Shown piece after piece: positions 1 to 6,097 of a stretch of DNA of 6,695 bases (the stretch's first letter is position 1; each line of letters starts with the position of its first letter). The notes beneath the pieces were generated by a model. The model searched no databases. It had not been told where the DNA came from and worked only from the letters and a program-made list of their open reading frames with translations. A program made the translations under genes and the position numbers. The DNA comes from Candidatus Eiseniibacteriota bacterium (lineage in GTDB: Bacteria; JAFGKV01): assembly GCA_025453925.1 (NCBI GenBank), contig JALOPK010000183.1, forward strand, positions 1-6,695. Direction: 5' to 3'.

Positions 1-2120
1 GTCTCCAGGCGCCGGTCTCGATCCTGAGCGGCACGCTCCAGCGAGGGGACGATCGCCAGCAGCGACACCACCGGACCCGTGCCGACCAGAAGCAGAAGCG
101 GCAGGAGGCGGTCGCGATACCGATAGAAGAGCTCGTGCCGGGATGAAACCATCCACAGCCGCCCCAGCCCGAGGGCCCCCGCAGCCGTGAGACAAAGCAT
201 GCCGGCCACCGCAAGGAAGGAGGCAGCGCGGGCAGGCAAATTGCTGCGGAGAAGCGCCAGGTCCGCTACATGTGGTCCATCAGCAAGCTCCCGTTGGAAG
301 CGAAACACCTCTCCCGCGGACTCCCGCCTCCACCCCATGGCCGGCCCTTCGGGATTCTGGAGCGAGAGCAGCCCACGGTCGGCAAAGCGGACCGCCCCGG
401 GCCACGGCGTTCCGTCGGCCAGACACCCTGACCCCCCTGCCGATACCGGCGCCAGCAGGTCCGCCACCAATGACACCACGACCGTATTCCCGGCACATGC
501 GGCCGACGCGTTCACGACGACACGGGGCGGCGGGATCTCCTCGGTGACATCCTCCCATTGCGCGCCACCGCCGGCGGTGGCGGGCTCGAAAGCGGGTTGG
601 TGGCGCAAGCCGAAAGTGAGACGATCTACTACCTGGCCCGACTGGTTGAGTTCCAGCAACTGCCCGGTCGCAGGGAAACGACCGAGAGGCCCACGCCTCC
701 ACACCTCGTCAAGACAGATCCCCGATCTCACACAGGGTCCCAACGCCTCACGTGCCAGGAAACGGAACCAGGGCCGCTCATCGAATGAGAGTCGCGCAGC
801 GAGCCGCTCCACCTCGACGCGGTGAACCGCGGCAACCAGACGCTCCGCACGAGGCAGGAGCATGCAGCATGCGGCGAGCACCATGCCCGTGCTCTGCACG
901 ACGGTCCAGAGATGGCGCTGCCTGACCAGGAATACTGAGAACAAGAGAAACGGAACGGCCCGAAGCCAGCCTGCGGGGACGCCTGAGCCCGCGGCGAGCC
1001 AGACGATGGATCCGAGACCCAGGATGGGTGGAGGAGCCCAGGCCACCAGCAGGGCAAACCCGGCGAAGACCGCGGCCGACGCGCCGATCATCGCCCAGGT
1101 CCCGGGCATGGTAGCGATGAGCTCGAGAGGGCTCAACGGTATGGTGCAGAAGGGCGCTGCAATCCCCCACAAATGCCCGAGCGCCGATGCTGCCGCAAGC
1201 GATCCGAGGGCGATGGCGACGACCCGGGGAACACGGTGTGCATCGTCGGCTTCTCGACGTCGCAACAGACTGGCCAGGAGCAGAAACGCAATGCCGGTCG
1301 CGAACAGGTCTCCCGGACTCCGCAGCAGTGGGATGGAAGTGGCGAAGAGGTCAGACCCGAAAAGCGTTCCCTTCGGTTTGGAGAGCGCCAGGCTGAGACG
1401 CCCGGCCCCGATGAGCAACAGAGCCAACCCAGGTTGGTTCTTCCCCCGACGTTCAAGAATCTCCAGTACCAGAACCAACATCAGAGCGGCATAGATCCAC
1501 TCAGTGGAAGAGCCGTGATCTTCGGGAGCGAGAAGATGGAGGGGAAAGGGATTCTGATCGAGTGCCACCACCGTGTCCGCCCGAGACGCGAGTTTGACGG
1601 GACACGAGGCGAGGAAGGTCAGGGGGCCTGCATCTGCCATCTCCGCGAGGCGCGTTTGGGTGCGCGTTCCGATGACCCACACCCCCTTCGGGATGGCCGA
1701 CCACCCATCCGGCACATCGCCGCTCCAGGCCACAGGCGTTTCCCCAACAAACAAGACGACGCCCGCCCCTCCCTCGCGGGCGATGGCCGTATCGATGGCA
1801 GCCCATCCACCTTCAAACAGTGGAGTCTCCAGTGTTGCGGTCTTCTCGAGACCCTGAACCGCCACCCGGACCCTGGCCAGTCCTTCGCGGGCCGCGTCCA
1901 GTTCACGGCGGACCGCCCCGGAGCCGCCCATCATTGCAACGTGGTCCGCGACGACAAGGAGGCCCAGGAGGACCAGCGTGACGTAGGCCGCGCGCCTCCT
2001 GCTCGCCATCGCGGCGATGAGCGCACCAAGCCAGAGGGCAAGGAGGACCCAACAACGGACGGGCTCAGGTCCGGCGCGGAGGCAGAGTGCCGTCGCGACC
2101 AGGAAGCCTGCCACGTTCAA
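1..2120 (-). CDS. Large polytopic membrane protein, sensor-like (partial, 3' end beyond window)
   Basis: A continuous frame of 706 codons runs off the left edge without a stop. The predicted protein has membrane helices near residues 24-38 and 44-62, then a soluble domain of about 140 residues (65-205). Seven or so further hydrophobic segments follow between about 208 and 421, then a second soluble domain (about 440-625) and two more helices (about 630-655 and 666-692). The visible end, containing RYRDRLLPLLLLVGTG, looks like the membrane segment that precedes a further loop or HAMP domain in sensor kinases. No kinase, cyclase or other catalytic motif lies inside the window, so a receptor or histidine kinase role is inference. 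The frame opens directly after the TGA of the upstream gene. The start is TTG 2120 or GTG 2114, with no clear Shine-Dalgarno sequence, which fits translational coupling. The first ATG is only at codon 38. It is the last visible gene of the operon. Confidence 0.85.
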   Translation of the reverse strand, partial: MNVAGFLVATALCLRAGPEPVRCWVLLALWLGALIAAMASRRRAAYVTLVLLGLLVVADHVAMMGGSGAVRRELDAAREGLARVRVAVQGLEKTATLETPLFEGGWAAIDTAIAREGGAGVVLFVGETPVAWSGDVPDGWSAIPKGVWVIGTRTQTRLAEMADAGPLTFLASCPVKLASRADTVVALDQNPFPLHLLAPEDHGSSTEWIYAALMLVLVLEILERRGKNQPGLALLLIGAGRLSLALSKPKGTLFGSDLFATSIPLLRSPGDLFATGIAFLLLASLLRRREADDAHRVPRVVAIALGSLAAASALGHLWGIAAPFCTIPLSPLELIATMPGTWAMIGASAAVFAGFALLVAWAPPPILGLGSIVWLAAGSGVPAGWLRAVPFLLFSVFLVRQRHLWTVVQSTGMVLAACCMLLPRAERLVAAVHRVEVERLAARLSFDERPWFRFLAREALGPCVRSGICLDEVWRRGPLGRFPATGQLLELNQSGQVVDRLTFGLRHQPAFEPATAGGGAQWEDVTEEIPPPRVVVNASAACAGNTVVVSLVADLLAPVSAGGSGCLADGTPWPGAVRFADRGLLSLQNPEGPAMGWRRESAGEVFRFQRELADGPHVADLALLRSNLPARAASFLAVAGMLCLTAAGALGLGRLWMVSSRHELFYRYRDRLLPLLLLVGTGPVVSLLAIVPSLERAAQDRDRRLE
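563..582. repeat. 20-bp perfect palindrome inside the large membrane-protein gene
   Basis: CGCCACCGCCGGCGGTGGCG is its own reverse complement over all 20 bases. It lies within coding sequence for the Ala/Gly-rich stretch PATAGGGAQ (about residues 513-520), in the second soluble domain. The low-complexity GCC/GGC codons may create it by chance. Confidence 0.7.
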
Positions 2121-2735
2121 TCAGCGAACCAGGTGGAGCCAGTCTCTCAGGAGGAAAAGGAACCTGCCGATGAGGAGCGTGAACCTGCTCATTGCGGCGT
2201 AACCGAAGGAGGCGCCGAAGGAAATCATGAGCGTGTAGAGGCCGGTAAGGGCCGCCACACCGCGGATTCCCCTCGGCTCGCGCGTGAAAGAGAAGTACGC
2301 CATCGTGGACAATACGCCGATCGCGACGACCAGAGAATCGAATCCCGCATCGGACGACAGCCCGATGGGGACCATCGTTGCGCGCATCTGCTCCAGGATG
2401 AGATTCTCCACGATCCCCGGTAGCGCGAGCCCGGCGGCGATGGAGGCCGCAACGGAGATCCCGACGGTTCCAAGGGTGTTCCGGCGCCACGAGGAAACGG
2501 CGATCCCGACACAGGCAGGGATCGCGAGCGCCATGGTCACCAGCGCAACGGGATCGGCAGCGGCGGACAGAATCCGCGGGATCAGTCCCGTGCGGATGAT
2601 CATCGCCAGGGCGTAGCCGGCAGCCAGACCCACCCCCACGTGCTCGATGATCCGATACACCAGGTTCTCGCGGTAAAGAATAGAGAAGACGCCAAGAGTG
2701 AGGAGCGCCGGCACGAGAACAGCGGGGTCGAACAT
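2121..2735 (-). CDS. Conserved polytopic membrane protein, 204 aa, function unknown
   Basis: The 204-residue protein is strongly hydrophobic, with about six membrane helices. The clearest are near residues 5-20, 31-48, 62-80, 90-106, 128-148 and 160-180. Recognisable blocks are YRENLVYRIIEHVGVGLAAGY near the N-terminus, GLALPGIVEN in the middle and GASFGYAAMSRFTLLIGRFLF near the C-terminus. From memory, these match a widespread uncharacterised family that ends just as this protein does, in a short amphipathic tail of the FLLRDWLH type. No catalytic motif is visible. The start ATG lies 1 nt after the stop of the 281-residue gene, and there is no strong Shine-Dalgarno sequence, so expression is probably coupled. 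Its TGA is followed in the same frame by the next gene. The protein is probably a membrane subunit of a complex with its neighbours, inferred from gene order only. Confidence 0.88.
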   Translation of the reverse strand: MFDPAVLVPALLTLGVFSILYRENLVYRIIEHVGVGLAAGYALAMIIRTGLIPRILSAAADPVALVTMALAIPACVGIAVSSWRRNTLGTVGISVAASIAAGLALPGIVENLILEQMRATMVPIGLSSDAGFDSLVVAIGVLSTMAYFSFTREPRGIRGVAALTGLYTLMISFGASFGYAAMSRFTLLIGRFLFLLRDWLHLVR

Positions 2736-2736
2736 C

Positions 2737-3582
2737 CTACACCGGTGGCCTGTCGCGCCACTTGGCCGCGAAGAACGCCGCGTTGCCGAGGATTATGAGG
2801 GCAATCAGGAGAAGATGGGCCATTGCTTGCGCCGACAGGGCTCGCAGGGCTTCACCCGGTCGCCCGGTCAGCTGTTCATACTCGGCTGCGCCGCGGAGTC
2901 CGGCAATCAGTCCGGCGATGGCATGGGTGTCGAGGAATCCCTGGAACGTAGGCCCCAGGCCGCCTCCCAATCCGATCACGATGGGAGCCCGGTACCGCGC
3001 ATGCCCGTAGATCACCCAATCCTGGGCAGCAGGGCCTGAGGCCACAACGGCAACCAATTGGTAGTCCGAGTGTCCTGACAGACCAGCCGCGAGCGGGAGC
3101 GCGCGCAGCGAGGTGCCTCGGTGGTCCCTGGGGAAGACCGTGTACGGCGCAGACGCCAGCGACATGATAACGCCGGGCGCGGAGGGCCGATACCCGAGAA
3201 ACACCCAGTCGGTGCCATAGGTCTTCCCCGCGGCGTCTGCCAGCATCTGAACCTTGGCTTCCACGAGGCCGATTCCTTGTGGATCGAGGCACACGAGAAC
3301 GAGCCGGGCGCCGCGGGAGAACACTTCTTGCACCAGAGTCGTCACCATGGGCTCCAGCTCAAACGCGGTCGCGCCATTGTAGTCGGCGGCCAGCAGGACG
3401 GTCTGCCCCTCGCTCACGCGCTGCACGGCGCGGAAGAATCCTTCGCTCTCCGCGGCAGGTGTGACTCTGGTCCCTGAGGCAGCCAGCAATGGGATGACAA
3501 TGGCGAGCGCAACCAGGAGATAGAGAATCCTGCGATCGATCCGGGTGAGAGACGCCAGGAGAGCGAGGTAATCCAGTCTCAT
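2737..3582 (-). CDS. Membrane-anchored globular-domain protein, 281 aa, function unknown
   Basis: The start ATG at 3582 overlaps the TGA of the preceding gene by 4 nt (ATGA), with GGAG about 10 nt upstream. The frame remains open upstream of 3582, but that part runs antiphase through the previous gene and is spurious. The protein has a membrane helix at about 18-35, an alpha/beta globular domain at about 45-250 and a second helix at about 254-273. The domain includes a strand-like TVLLAADYNG, the helix ELEPMVTTLVQEVF, a second strand LVLVCLD, YGTDWVFLGYRP and GLIAGLRGAAEYEQL. The last two blocks recall, from memory, a conserved uncharacterised family. Arg14, Arg17 and Arg18 before helix 1, and Lys274, Arg276 and Arg278 after helix 2, predict that both ends are cytoplasmic and the domain is extracytoplasmic. 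No enzyme signature is recognised. It is probably a partner of the adjacent membrane proteins. Confidence 0.88.
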   Translation of the reverse strand: MRLDYLALLASLTRIDRRILYLLVALAIVIPLLAASGTRVTPAAESEGFFRAVQRVSEGQTVLLAADYNGATAFELEPMVTTLVQEVFSRGARLVLVCLDPQGIGLVEAKVQMLADAAGKTYGTDWVFLGYRPSAPGVIMSLASAPYTVFPRDHRGTSLRALPLAAGLSGHSDYQLVAVVASGPAAQDWVIYGHARYRAPIVIGLGGGLGPTFQGFLDTHAIAGLIAGLRGAAEYEQLTGRPGEALRALSAQAMAHLLLIALIILGNAAFFAAKWRDRPPV

Positions 3583-4205
3583 GAGCGCTTTGCTCCGGTG
3601 GGACCCTGGATGCCGAGGATTACCCGGAACCCCGTGGCGCAGGCCGCGAGCCCGATGCCGATCCATAGACCTCTCGTGGCGGCGACGTTCGGCCCTCGGA
3701 TGATCCAGGTCGAGAACATGGAGATCCGTGGCACGAGATGTTCGCCCAGCGGCACCCGTGCCAGAAGGACGGTCAGAGCGGAGACCAACAGGATCGTCGC
3801 CGGTGCAGAGGTCAGCCGGAAGCTTCGAAACACCGCAGATGCCATGAAGAAACCGAGAAGGCTCATCATCGATGCCTGGATGGGCTGGAGCACCGATAAG
3901 TAGATGGCGCCAAAGGCGCTGCCCGGTCCCGTGCCCAATGCCAGGCCAGTCGCCAGCATGAAGGCCATAGCACCCAGCGTAACCGCTGCCAGCGCGCGCT
4001 CCGGACCCTCGCCACGCGAGATCCTCGCGGCATGTCGACGCGCCAGCGCAAGAATCCCCGCCACCAATGCTGCAGACTCCAGCAACACCAGCCAATCAAG
4101 CAGCCGTGCTTCAACCCAGCGGCTGGCCTGATGGGGCACGAAGAACTGTGCGATCGCAAGGCTCCCGAGGATGATCACCAGCGGCCGGCTCAGTCTGCGG
4201 ATCAT
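3579..4205 (-). CDS. Conserved polytopic membrane protein, 208 aa, function unknown
   Basis: This 208-residue protein has about six predicted membrane helices, near residues 8-24, 36-55, 71-90, 100-126, 135-150 and 177-197. Notable blocks are FFVPHQASRWVEARLLDW after helix 1, LQPIQASMMSLLGFFMASAVFR in the middle, RVPLG after helix 5 and a C-terminal GFRVILGIQ. From memory, this pattern belongs to a recurrent uncharacterised family found next to DUF6754-like proteins. There is no known catalytic motif. The ATG directly abuts the TAG of the upstream gene (4206), with a GGTGA ribosome-binding-like sequence 4 nt before the start. The TGA overlaps the next gene's ATG. Polar and charged residues inside or next to the helices (Glu43, Gln107, Gln110, Arg127) may be packing or interaction sites, which is inference. 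Confidence 0.88.
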   Translation of the reverse strand: MIRRLSRPLVIILGSLAIAQFFVPHQASRWVEARLLDWLVLLESAALVAGILALARRHAARISRGEGPERALAAVTLGAMAFMLATGLALGTGPGSAFGAIYLSVLQPIQASMMSLLGFFMASAVFRSFRLTSAPATILLVSALTVLLARVPLGEHLVPRISMFSTWIIRGPNVAATRGLWIGIGLAACATGFRVILGIQGPTGAKRS

Positions 4206-5393
4206 CTAGTCACCGCCCCCCGAGAATGCTCGAAGATACCAGGTCACGCCCAGTTTCGCGGCGGCCACTCCCACGAGAATCAGCACCCATGCCAGCACTT
4301 TGAGCCGGTCGTGAACAAGCGCCGCCGCACGGCACCCCCCGGGTGACAGCAGGGGCCCCGCAAGGAGCAGTTCCTCCCCGATGAGCGTGAGATCGCAACT
4401 CGCAACGAGAAACGGCGTCTCGCCGACATCCGTGGTTCCGCCGACCGCGATGGCCCCGCTGCGCCGGAGCGCTTCGGACAGGAGAAATGCCTCCGCCCCA
4501 AGCGCCCCCGCGACCACCCCGAGAGCCGGAGGTGAGCGCAACGCCTCACCGGTGAACGCGAGGCTGAATGTGGGACGATCAGGACTGACATAGCGCACAT
4601 CTTGGTCCGGCAAAGCGTTGACTACAAGGACATGCGCCAACGGGTCCGACGTGCACACCACGACGTCGGCCGTCTCACCCTCCGACCCCGGCATTCGCGT
4701 GATCTCTTCCAGCAGCGTCACCGAGGCGATGGTCCCCATGTCGCCGAGACCACCGGTTCCCGGAACGAATACCAAGGACCCTCGATGCGTGCGCCCGAGT
4801 ATCTCCGAGAGAGTGCGGACGGCGGGCAGCATCCATTCCTGATCCACGGGAAGCCGCTTGGTGGCCAGCAACATCAGCAGAACGACGAGCAGGCCGACCA
4901 GCACGGAGACTCGCCTGGTGTCAAACCATTGGCCGCGACTGGCCACCGGGCCGATAATCCTTGAGTCGGAAGCGGACCCGCCCAGGGACCTGGTGCGGAT
5001 CATGTAGTAGAAACGGTTTCCCACCGTGGCGAATCGATCCCGGAAACGATCCGTTCCGGGGCCCAGCACGACCATCGGCGCGAATGGCCCGTCCGGTGAT
5101 GCGGACCTCAGCACCTCATACCCCGCGAAGGCCCCCGACTCGATGCCGTCGTCCGAAGACAGGGTCCAATACAAGTCCAGTGATCCACCTGCGTCATTGG
5201 GTGAATCCAGGACGACCAGGCTGTCGATCGCTTGAGGACCAGAGGAGTCCGGGCGCGCAGCCAGGAGACTCTCCGCGGGAGTTGACAATGCAGAGTCGTC
5301 GGATGCGATGAGGGGAACAGGGGAAGCTGAGGGTACCTGGGCGAAGGCCAGCGACGTGAGCAGCAGCAGGCAAGCGAGAGTTGCTCCCATCAT
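4206..5393 (-). CDS. FN3-like ectodomain protein with DUF6754-like membrane-anchored domain, 395 aa
   Basis: A signal peptide (residues 1-18, ending AFA before Gln19) is followed by a Ser/Pro/Ala-rich linker to about residue 52. A fibronectin type III-like beta domain (about 53-150) follows, with the typical GYEVLRS strand, an RFRD turn and a YYMIRT strand. A membrane helix at 162-178 is followed by Lys-Arg, so the next domain (about 180-360) is probably cytoplasmic. A second helix lies at about 365-387. The cytoplasmic part has a strand, SLVFVPG, running into the glycine-rich GTGGLGDMGT, then a helix, and later PFLVASCDLTLIGEELLLAG. I associate these blocks with DUF6754 from memory, and its function is unknown to me. 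Two starts are possible: ATG 5393 overlaps the upstream stop, and GGAGG at 5395-5399 is better spaced for ATG 5390, which would shorten the protein by one residue. The gene abuts the next one directly. Confidence 0.88.
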   Translation of the reverse strand: MMGATLACLLLLTSLAFAQVPSASPVPLIASDDSALSTPAESLLAARPDSSGPQAIDSLVVLDSPNDAGGSLDLYWTLSSDDGIESGAFAGYEVLRSASPDGPFAPMVVLGPGTDRFRDRFATVGNRFYYMIRTRSLGGSASDSRIIGPVASRGQWFDTRRVSVLVGLLVVLLMLLATKRLPVDQEWMLPAVRTLSEILGRTHRGSLVFVPGTGGLGDMGTIASVTLLEEITRMPGSEGETADVVVCTSDPLAHVLVVNALPDQDVRYVSPDRPTFSLAFTGEALRSPPALGVVAGALGAEAFLLSEALRRSGAIAVGGTTDVGETPFLVASCDLTLIGEELLLAGPLLSPGGCRAAALVHDRLKVLAWVLILVGVAAAKLGVTWYLRAFSGGGD

Positions 5394-6097
5394 GCCTCCG
5401 GCCGCTCGCCTCGGCGCTTCGTCTTGTAAACTCTGGCCATTATCCGCATGACGTCTTCGTCTCCGAGCGAGAGAACGGTCTGCAGCTTCCGGAAGCTGGC
5501 CTTCTCCTTCTCGGTGAGCTTCTGATGGCTACTCGACACTCTGTACCGGTCGAGATACGTTTGGCGAGCGATGGATCGTGCCGCGCGGTCGCCGATGCCG
5601 AAGGCCTTAGTCAGCCGCACGACGTCATCCCGGCCGACACTGTCTATGTAGGCTGAACTCGTCATTCGATCCAGCCGGCCCGCATAGTCGAAAAGCCTCT
5701 GGTTTCTCGAGAGATACCAATACACTCCCGCCGTGCCCGAGACTCCGCAGAGCAGAAGAATGGGGGCATACACCCAGTCTCTCGAAGACGGGATGGGCTC
5801 ATCGCCAAGGATCGATTCGCCTTCGGGAGCGGCAGTGGGGCCCTGTAACCGAACCAGGTCGTGGAAAACCCACCCTGAGTTGTGTTCATCAACTCGGATT
5901 CTGATCCACTCACCCTTGACTTCCAGGACGTCGAACTCCTCCCCCTCATACACCCTGCGCAGCACATTGCTCGATGTACTCGCGCCCACGCGCACGTTGG
6001 CCCAACGTCGTGCGACGAAGGCCTTTCCCGGCGTCGATTCCTGTGCTGGAGCGGAGGACATCATGAAGAGCAGGAGAGCAAGACTGAACTGCCACAC
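5390..6097 (-). CDS. SH3b-domain protein with signal peptide, one membrane helix and cytoplasmic helical tail, 235 aa
   Basis: The start is GTG 6097, the first usable start after an in-frame stop, with AGGAG 9 nt upstream. Residues 1-18 form a signal peptide (cleavage near APA/QE). Residues 27-84 are a bacterial SH3 (SH3b, SH3_3-type) domain with the hallmark ANVRVGAS start, a VLEVKGEWIRIRV core and a GWVFHDLV end. Such domains bind cell-wall or periplasmic ligands. A short linker leads to a membrane helix at about 109-129. The remaining 105 residues are charged, predicted helical and probably cytoplasmic, with a basic C-terminus (KTKRRGERPEA). I do not recognise this tail. It is the first gene of the operon, so the protein could link envelope state to the membrane partners encoded downstream. 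That role is inference. Its stop overlaps the next gene's start. Confidence 0.88.
   Translation of the reverse strand: MWQFSLALLLFMMSSAPAQESTPGKAFVARRWANVRVGASTSSNVLRRVYEGEEFDVLEVKGEWIRIRVDEHNSGWVFHDLVRLQGPTAAPEGESILGDEPIPSSRDWVYAPILLLCGVSGTAGVYWYLSRNQRLFDYAGRLDRMTSSAYIDSVGRDDVVRLTKAFGIGDRAARSIARQTYLDRYRVSSSHQKLTEKEKASFRKLQTVLSLGDEDVMRIMARVYKTKRRGERPEA
5395..5399 (-). promoter_or_regulatory. Shine-Dalgarno sequence of the FN3/DUF6754-like gene, inside the SH3b gene end
   Basis: GGAGG on the - strand is 1 nt from ATG 5393 and 4 nt from ATG 5390. The spacing favours the second ATG, although both are close. Its position inside the last codons of the upstream gene fits coupled translation. Confidence 0.5.

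Follow-up and report, generated by a model that had tools for sequence, protein, structure and literature searches.

A recurring four-gene membrane cassette with a DUF6754 protein, and its diverged copy beside a putative histidine kinase gene in Candidatus Eiseniibacteriota

The described families that come closest to the locus analysed here and to its partners are Pfam DUF6754 (PF20539), the GlmL/MutL family (PF13941; NF040745, TIGR01319) and the two-component sensor histidine kinases. Pfam lists DUF6754 as a domain of unknown function only, and the four-gene module reported below is absent from the family description. The DUF6754 protein of the window (the whole 6,695-nt stretch of DNA that was analysed) lies above the family cut-off but is divergent, with 94-96 bits where most copies reach about 350-410, and it lacks the motif GRATEMG. 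The GlmL/MutL-like protein c1, which is absent from the window itself and accompanies the module in other places, matches PF13941 and keeps the ASKHA motifs; however, it is longer than the described family (mostly 590-660 aa versus about 455-503), reaches only half the cut-off of the NCBIfam GlmL equivalog (229 versus 475 bits), and goes with a membrane module rather than with glutamate mutase. Full-length orthologues of the last gene in the window, g6, carry HisKA and HATPase_c like two-component sensor histidine kinases, but differ from these in an N-terminal multi-transmembrane (TM) region of ~900 aa that has no family match, in having cassette proteins as neighbours, and in the absence of an adjacent response regulator (none at locus L036, which holds the orthologue with sequence beyond g6). 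The window contains the following genes.

5390..6097, minus strand: g1, a 235-aa SH3b protein
4206..5393, minus strand: g2, a 395-aa divergent DUF6754 protein
3579..4205, minus strand: g3, a 208-aa polytopic membrane protein with about 6 TM segments, part of the module core
2737..3582, minus strand: g4, 281 aa, a Rossmann-like globular domain between two TM segments, part of the module core
2121..2735, minus strand: g5, a 204-aa polytopic membrane protein with at least 5 TM peaks, part of the module core
3..2114, minus strand: g6, the N-terminal part of a large multi-TM protein, truncated where the contig ends

The initial annotation described a compact run of five genes at 2121-6097, and the reading frames, all on the minus strand, and the junctions bear this out: g1 and g2 overlap by 4 nt, g2 and g3 abut, g3 and g4 overlap by 4 nt, and a 1-nt gap separates g4 from g5 (the start of g4 is the ATG at 3582, and the mechanical ORF extends further upstream). 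The operon does not end with these five genes, since g6 has a probable GTG start at 2114, 6 nt past the end of g5. The aspS gene runs in the direction opposite to g1-g6 from about 6280. When compared with the nearest relative, all six genes appear to be under purifying selection (pN/pS 0.24-0.52). A search for a plasmid found none.

The assignment of SH3b and FN3/DUF6754 domains was correct. The g1 protein scores 44.4 bits against SH3_3 (PF08239; gathering score 27) over residues 33-82. It had been taken for a periplasmic protein, which agrees with its signal peptide and SH3b domain, but a single TM segment lies near residue 120 and is followed by a charged tail of ~100 aa that is presumably cytosolic. 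The g2 protein scores 95.9 bits against DUF6754 (gathering score 27) over residues 153-387, and its layout is a signal peptide, a periplasmic FN3 domain (about 50-156), a TM segment (159-179), the alpha/beta DUF6754 domain and a C-terminal TM segment; charge bias suggests that the alpha/beta domain is cytosolic. The predicted structure of g2 has a mean pLDDT of 83, its FN3 fold matches many FN3 structures with Z about 13 in agreement with the sequence profile, and the FN3 domain fills the list of PDB matches for the model. For g4, the predicted structure (pLDDT 95) shows a TM segment, a Rossmann-like domain and a second TM segment, so the earlier description of a membrane-anchored globular protein is right about the globular domain, which is flanked by two TM segments. 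Charge bias predicts that the domain is periplasmic. The best fold match of g4 is 1kjn (Z 10.5, rmsd 3.7, 139 residues aligned), the matches being to generic Rossmann-like folds only, and Foldseek gave no match below 0.001, with no specific relative standing out. No catalytic signature was seen in g2 or g4. Homology between g3 and g5 was looked for and none was seen. The alpha/beta domains of g2 and g4 share the same predicted secondary-structure order and are both flanked by TM segments, yet profile comparison gave no support for their homology.

What is conserved is a set of four genes, g2-g3-g4-g5, and not of five. The window carries these genes in this order and tightly packed, as do 103 complete cassettes from about ten phyla of the FCB type or candidate status; a genome often has more than one of them, sometimes in tandem, and several loci hold two or three cassettes in a row. 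Median gaps between successive genes are 10, 1 and 0 nt, with starts and some gaps being approximate in the other loci because the gene caller was simple (longest ORF or GC3). The initial annotation mentioned related sets from diverse bacteria. This is true of g2-g3-g4-g5, which recurs across phyla, but the SH3b gene falls outside the recurring set: full-length g1 was found only in the three genomes of the window phylum, with one copy each, and the other matches span only the SH3 part, so SH3b was rejected as a general member. The three genomes of the window phylum have 4-7 DUF6754 genes each, and every one of them has a single cassette of the type that is preceded by g1 and followed by the kinase. 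A scan of public genomes returned at least 577 DUF6754 loci, the best 80 of which belong to Zixibacteria, WOR-3/Stahlbacteria, Eisenbacteria, Latescibacteria, Fermentibacteria, Cloacimonadota, Coatesbacteria, TA06, Edwardsbacteria, Poribacteria and a 'Deltaproteobacteria' bin.

Homologues of g2-g5 are found mostly together, as all four genes share the same order at 78 of 97 loci (many of the others are cut by contig ends) and they occur in the same genomes. In a sample of 98 genomes from 96 families, DUF6754 is carried by 23 genomes, g4 by 24 and g5 by 25, and the sets are nested; the two additional genomes carry a strongly diverged version (L140) and a g5 match only (L141), respectively. Fisher values for the co-occurrence of g2, g4 and g5 are about 1e-18 to 1e-21, which overstates the association because phylogeny is ignored. 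The adjacency of the cassette genes in distant genomes is independent support. Moreover, pairwise distances of the four genes correlate over the 103 cassettes (Mantel r 0.75-0.84, with a permutation maximum of 0.23). The recurring gene order supports, for g2-g5, the earlier suggestion of one co-transcribed and probably physically associated envelope set, and it is strongly suggested by these comparisons that the four genes encode one complex. Outside the window phylum, 20 of 95 sampled families (about one in five) have the module, with up to seven copies per genome.

The recurring set also has cytosolic partners, namely the MutL-like ATPase c1, the protein c2 and the small protein c5. The c1 protein is a MutL/GlmL-family ASKHA ATPase with a strong match to PF13941, and it recurs beside the cassette together with c2, a protein of ~375 aa with a weak barrel-sandwich match; neither c1 nor c2 has a PDB sequence match. 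Of 40 MutL sequences, 36 keep their ATPase motifs intact. All 20 of the 98 genomes with c2 are module-positive, including those where c2 is unlinked to the cassette (it is often adjacent), and nearly all c2-carrying genomes have a long MutL. Long forms of MutL thus go with the module as c2 does, and above the cut-off, four module-negative genomes have a short MutL only. The genes are arranged as an operon c5-MutL-c2-g2-g3-g4-g5 at L135, L136, L138 and L139, and as g2-g3-g4-g5-MutL-c2 at L132. The genome of the window has a MutL-like ATPase and c2 on another contig (G000:C314), unlinked to the window contig. MutL-c2 also occurs as fused proteins of ~1,000 aa (G000:C148, L159:3597-6686; L160:5132-8089; L161:894-3932) on contigs with no cassette in view, the first being from the window's own genome; these fusions probably represent another, diverged form of MutL-c2. 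In each of the three genomes of the window phylum, a PAS histidine kinase and an apparent sigma-54 response regulator come after the MutL-c2 pair (L122:7918-10604, L123:8196-11519 and L124:8195-11361), with a carbamoyltransferase-like gene after the regulator and glycine-cleavage genes before MutL-c2.

The GRATEMG motif, which follows the first TM segment of g2, is missing from the window copy and from both of its orthologues (L035 and L036). The motif is near-universal in the other g2 copies, although it is not known as a defining trait of the cassette. Among the few exceptions is genome G060, which is module-positive and has neither MutL nor c2. Genome G079 is likewise module-positive without MutL and c2, yet apparently keeps GRATEMG; unless this 90%-complete genome simply misses MutL and c2, it weakens the idea that the ATPase and c2 dock on the complex.

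The other distinguishing feature of the window copy is g6, which over 707 aa shares 47% identity with the N-terminal half of a protein of 1,314 aa from the nearest relative. The full-length orthologues at L035 and L036 are multi-TM proteins of ~1,320 aa with HisKA and HATPase_c at the C-terminal end, to which the orthologue of the second relative adds a weak HAMP match. The window g6 stops at the contig end before the kinase region, and HisKA/HATPase_c are known from these two orthologues; judged by them, g6 is presumably a multi-TM histidine kinase. The kinase orthologues adjoin the cassette in both relatives, and in genome G002 the kinase gene lies 417 nt downstream of the cassette.

Other cassettes of the window phylum have a HAMP-SpoIIE phosphatase or an STPK-FGE protein as a neighbour. 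Outside this phylum, signalling neighbours are rare (1 in about 100), and cassettes lie beside metabolic, TonB or housekeeping genes; thus, signalling is not the ancestral association of the cassette. A general signalling role for the module finds no support beyond the window phylum, where such neighbours occur almost nowhere. Downstream of one cassette type of the window phylum lie genes for a UlaG-like metallohydrolase and for a fusion of a Ser/Thr kinase with an FGE-sulfatase domain (L024:9912-14561, L025:1-3969 and L026:1281-5945). TonB/ExbBD-type genes come after the cassette in Fermentibacteria and WOR-3 (L073:11247-16835 and L068:11153-16274).

What might such a module do? Starting from the observed gene content, order, conservation and co-occurrence, the loss of the motif and the kinase domains of the full-length orthologues, the explanation that we favour is that g2-g5 form a single inner-membrane complex in which g3 and g5 would be the membrane core, g2 would place an FN3 domain in the periplasm and an alpha/beta domain in the cytosol, and g4 would add a periplasmic Rossmann-like domain. 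In most carriers, the complex would work with the cytosolic GlmL/MutL-like ASKHA ATPase, the adaptor c2 and the small c5, with the ATPase and c2 probably contacting g2 on its cytosolic face. The window copy would be a derived paralogue that lost GRATEMG and was extended by two proteins, a membrane-anchored SH3b protein that faces the envelope and a large sensor histidine kinase that serves as the output, and it most likely would report the state of the envelope to that kinase. The physical association of the subunits, the topology and the docking of the ATPase and c2, as well as the sensing role, the coupling to the kinase, the direction of signalling and a ligand, are steps that we infer. Taken as a whole, the explanation of a g2-g5 complex acting with MutL-c2, one copy of which diverged and was wired to a histidine kinase, has in our estimate not quite an even chance of being right. 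We are slightly more hesitant about its broadest form, a widespread and previously undescribed envelope machine of seven families. Four of these would make up the inner-membrane complex, present as several paralogues per genome, and the ASKHA ATPase would act on it together with a barrel-sandwich adaptor and a small protein at the membrane surface; one copy would have been rewired in the window phylum into an envelope sensor that controls a histidine kinase.

An alternative is that the module is an ATPase-energised transporter or flippase, in which g3 and g5 would form the path, g2 and g4 would bind substrate on the two sides of the membrane, and the MutL-like ATPase with c2 would drive the process; the window copy would then be a substrate-specific paralogue that the kinase only regulates. 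The two polytopic subunits, the close co-occurrence of a conserved ASKHA ATPase, the many paralogous cassettes per genome and the frequent TonB/ExbBD neighbours in some phyla are consistent with transport. However, no ATPase is linked to the window copy, the cassettes of different phyla share no recurrent substrate-linked neighbour, and powering transport is not a known function of GlmL-type ASKHA ATPases, which leaves this reading rather unlikely. It is less probable still that a cytosolic assembly of actin-like c1 and c2 on the membrane module is a structural or positioning scaffold that organises envelope machinery, with SH3b tying one copy to the cell wall. Membership of c1 in the ASKHA/actin superfamily, the binding-type FN3 and SH3b domains and the number of paralogues would fit a scaffold, but cell-shape or division genes were not seen to recur beside the cassettes and filaments are not in evidence.

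The family membership of c1, together with the Rossmann-like model of g4, could also be read as pointing to a membrane enzyme that depends on a cofactor. The cofactor would be bound by g4 and the DUF6754 domain, and c1 would be the reactivase, a role like the one proposed for GlmL with glutamate mutase. We consider this improbable, as c1 scores well below the GlmL equivalog cut-off, and neither a catalytic signature in g2 or g4 nor a specific fold match speaks for an enzyme. That a conserved ATPase so closely accompanies the module offers a practical way into it, and the link to a histidine kinase in the window copy would provide a measurable output.

One of the module's seven families is a DUF, and five (g3, g4, g5, c2 and c5) match no Pfam family above the cut-off. 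A search of the open-access PMC literature found no paper that mentions DUF6754 or PF13941, and within that scope the function is undescribed, as the initial annotation had supposed; the module would thus be a new kind of system. Literature searches on GlmL gave nothing relevant.

DUF6754 genes and parts of the module also occur outside complete cassettes. The very diverged g3-g4-g5 of genome G095 (L140:5148-10659) is preceded by proteins that, by eye, resemble a degraded g2, MutL and c5, and is followed by a CtpA-like protease, also identified by eye. DUF6754 genes are found alone at L038 and L040. Stand-alone DUF6754 genes without g3-g5, one per genome, are present at L021:7146-8321, L022:7211-8380 and L023:2383-3420, and at L021 and L022 the gene lies beside a polytopic, glycosyltransferase-like membrane protein.
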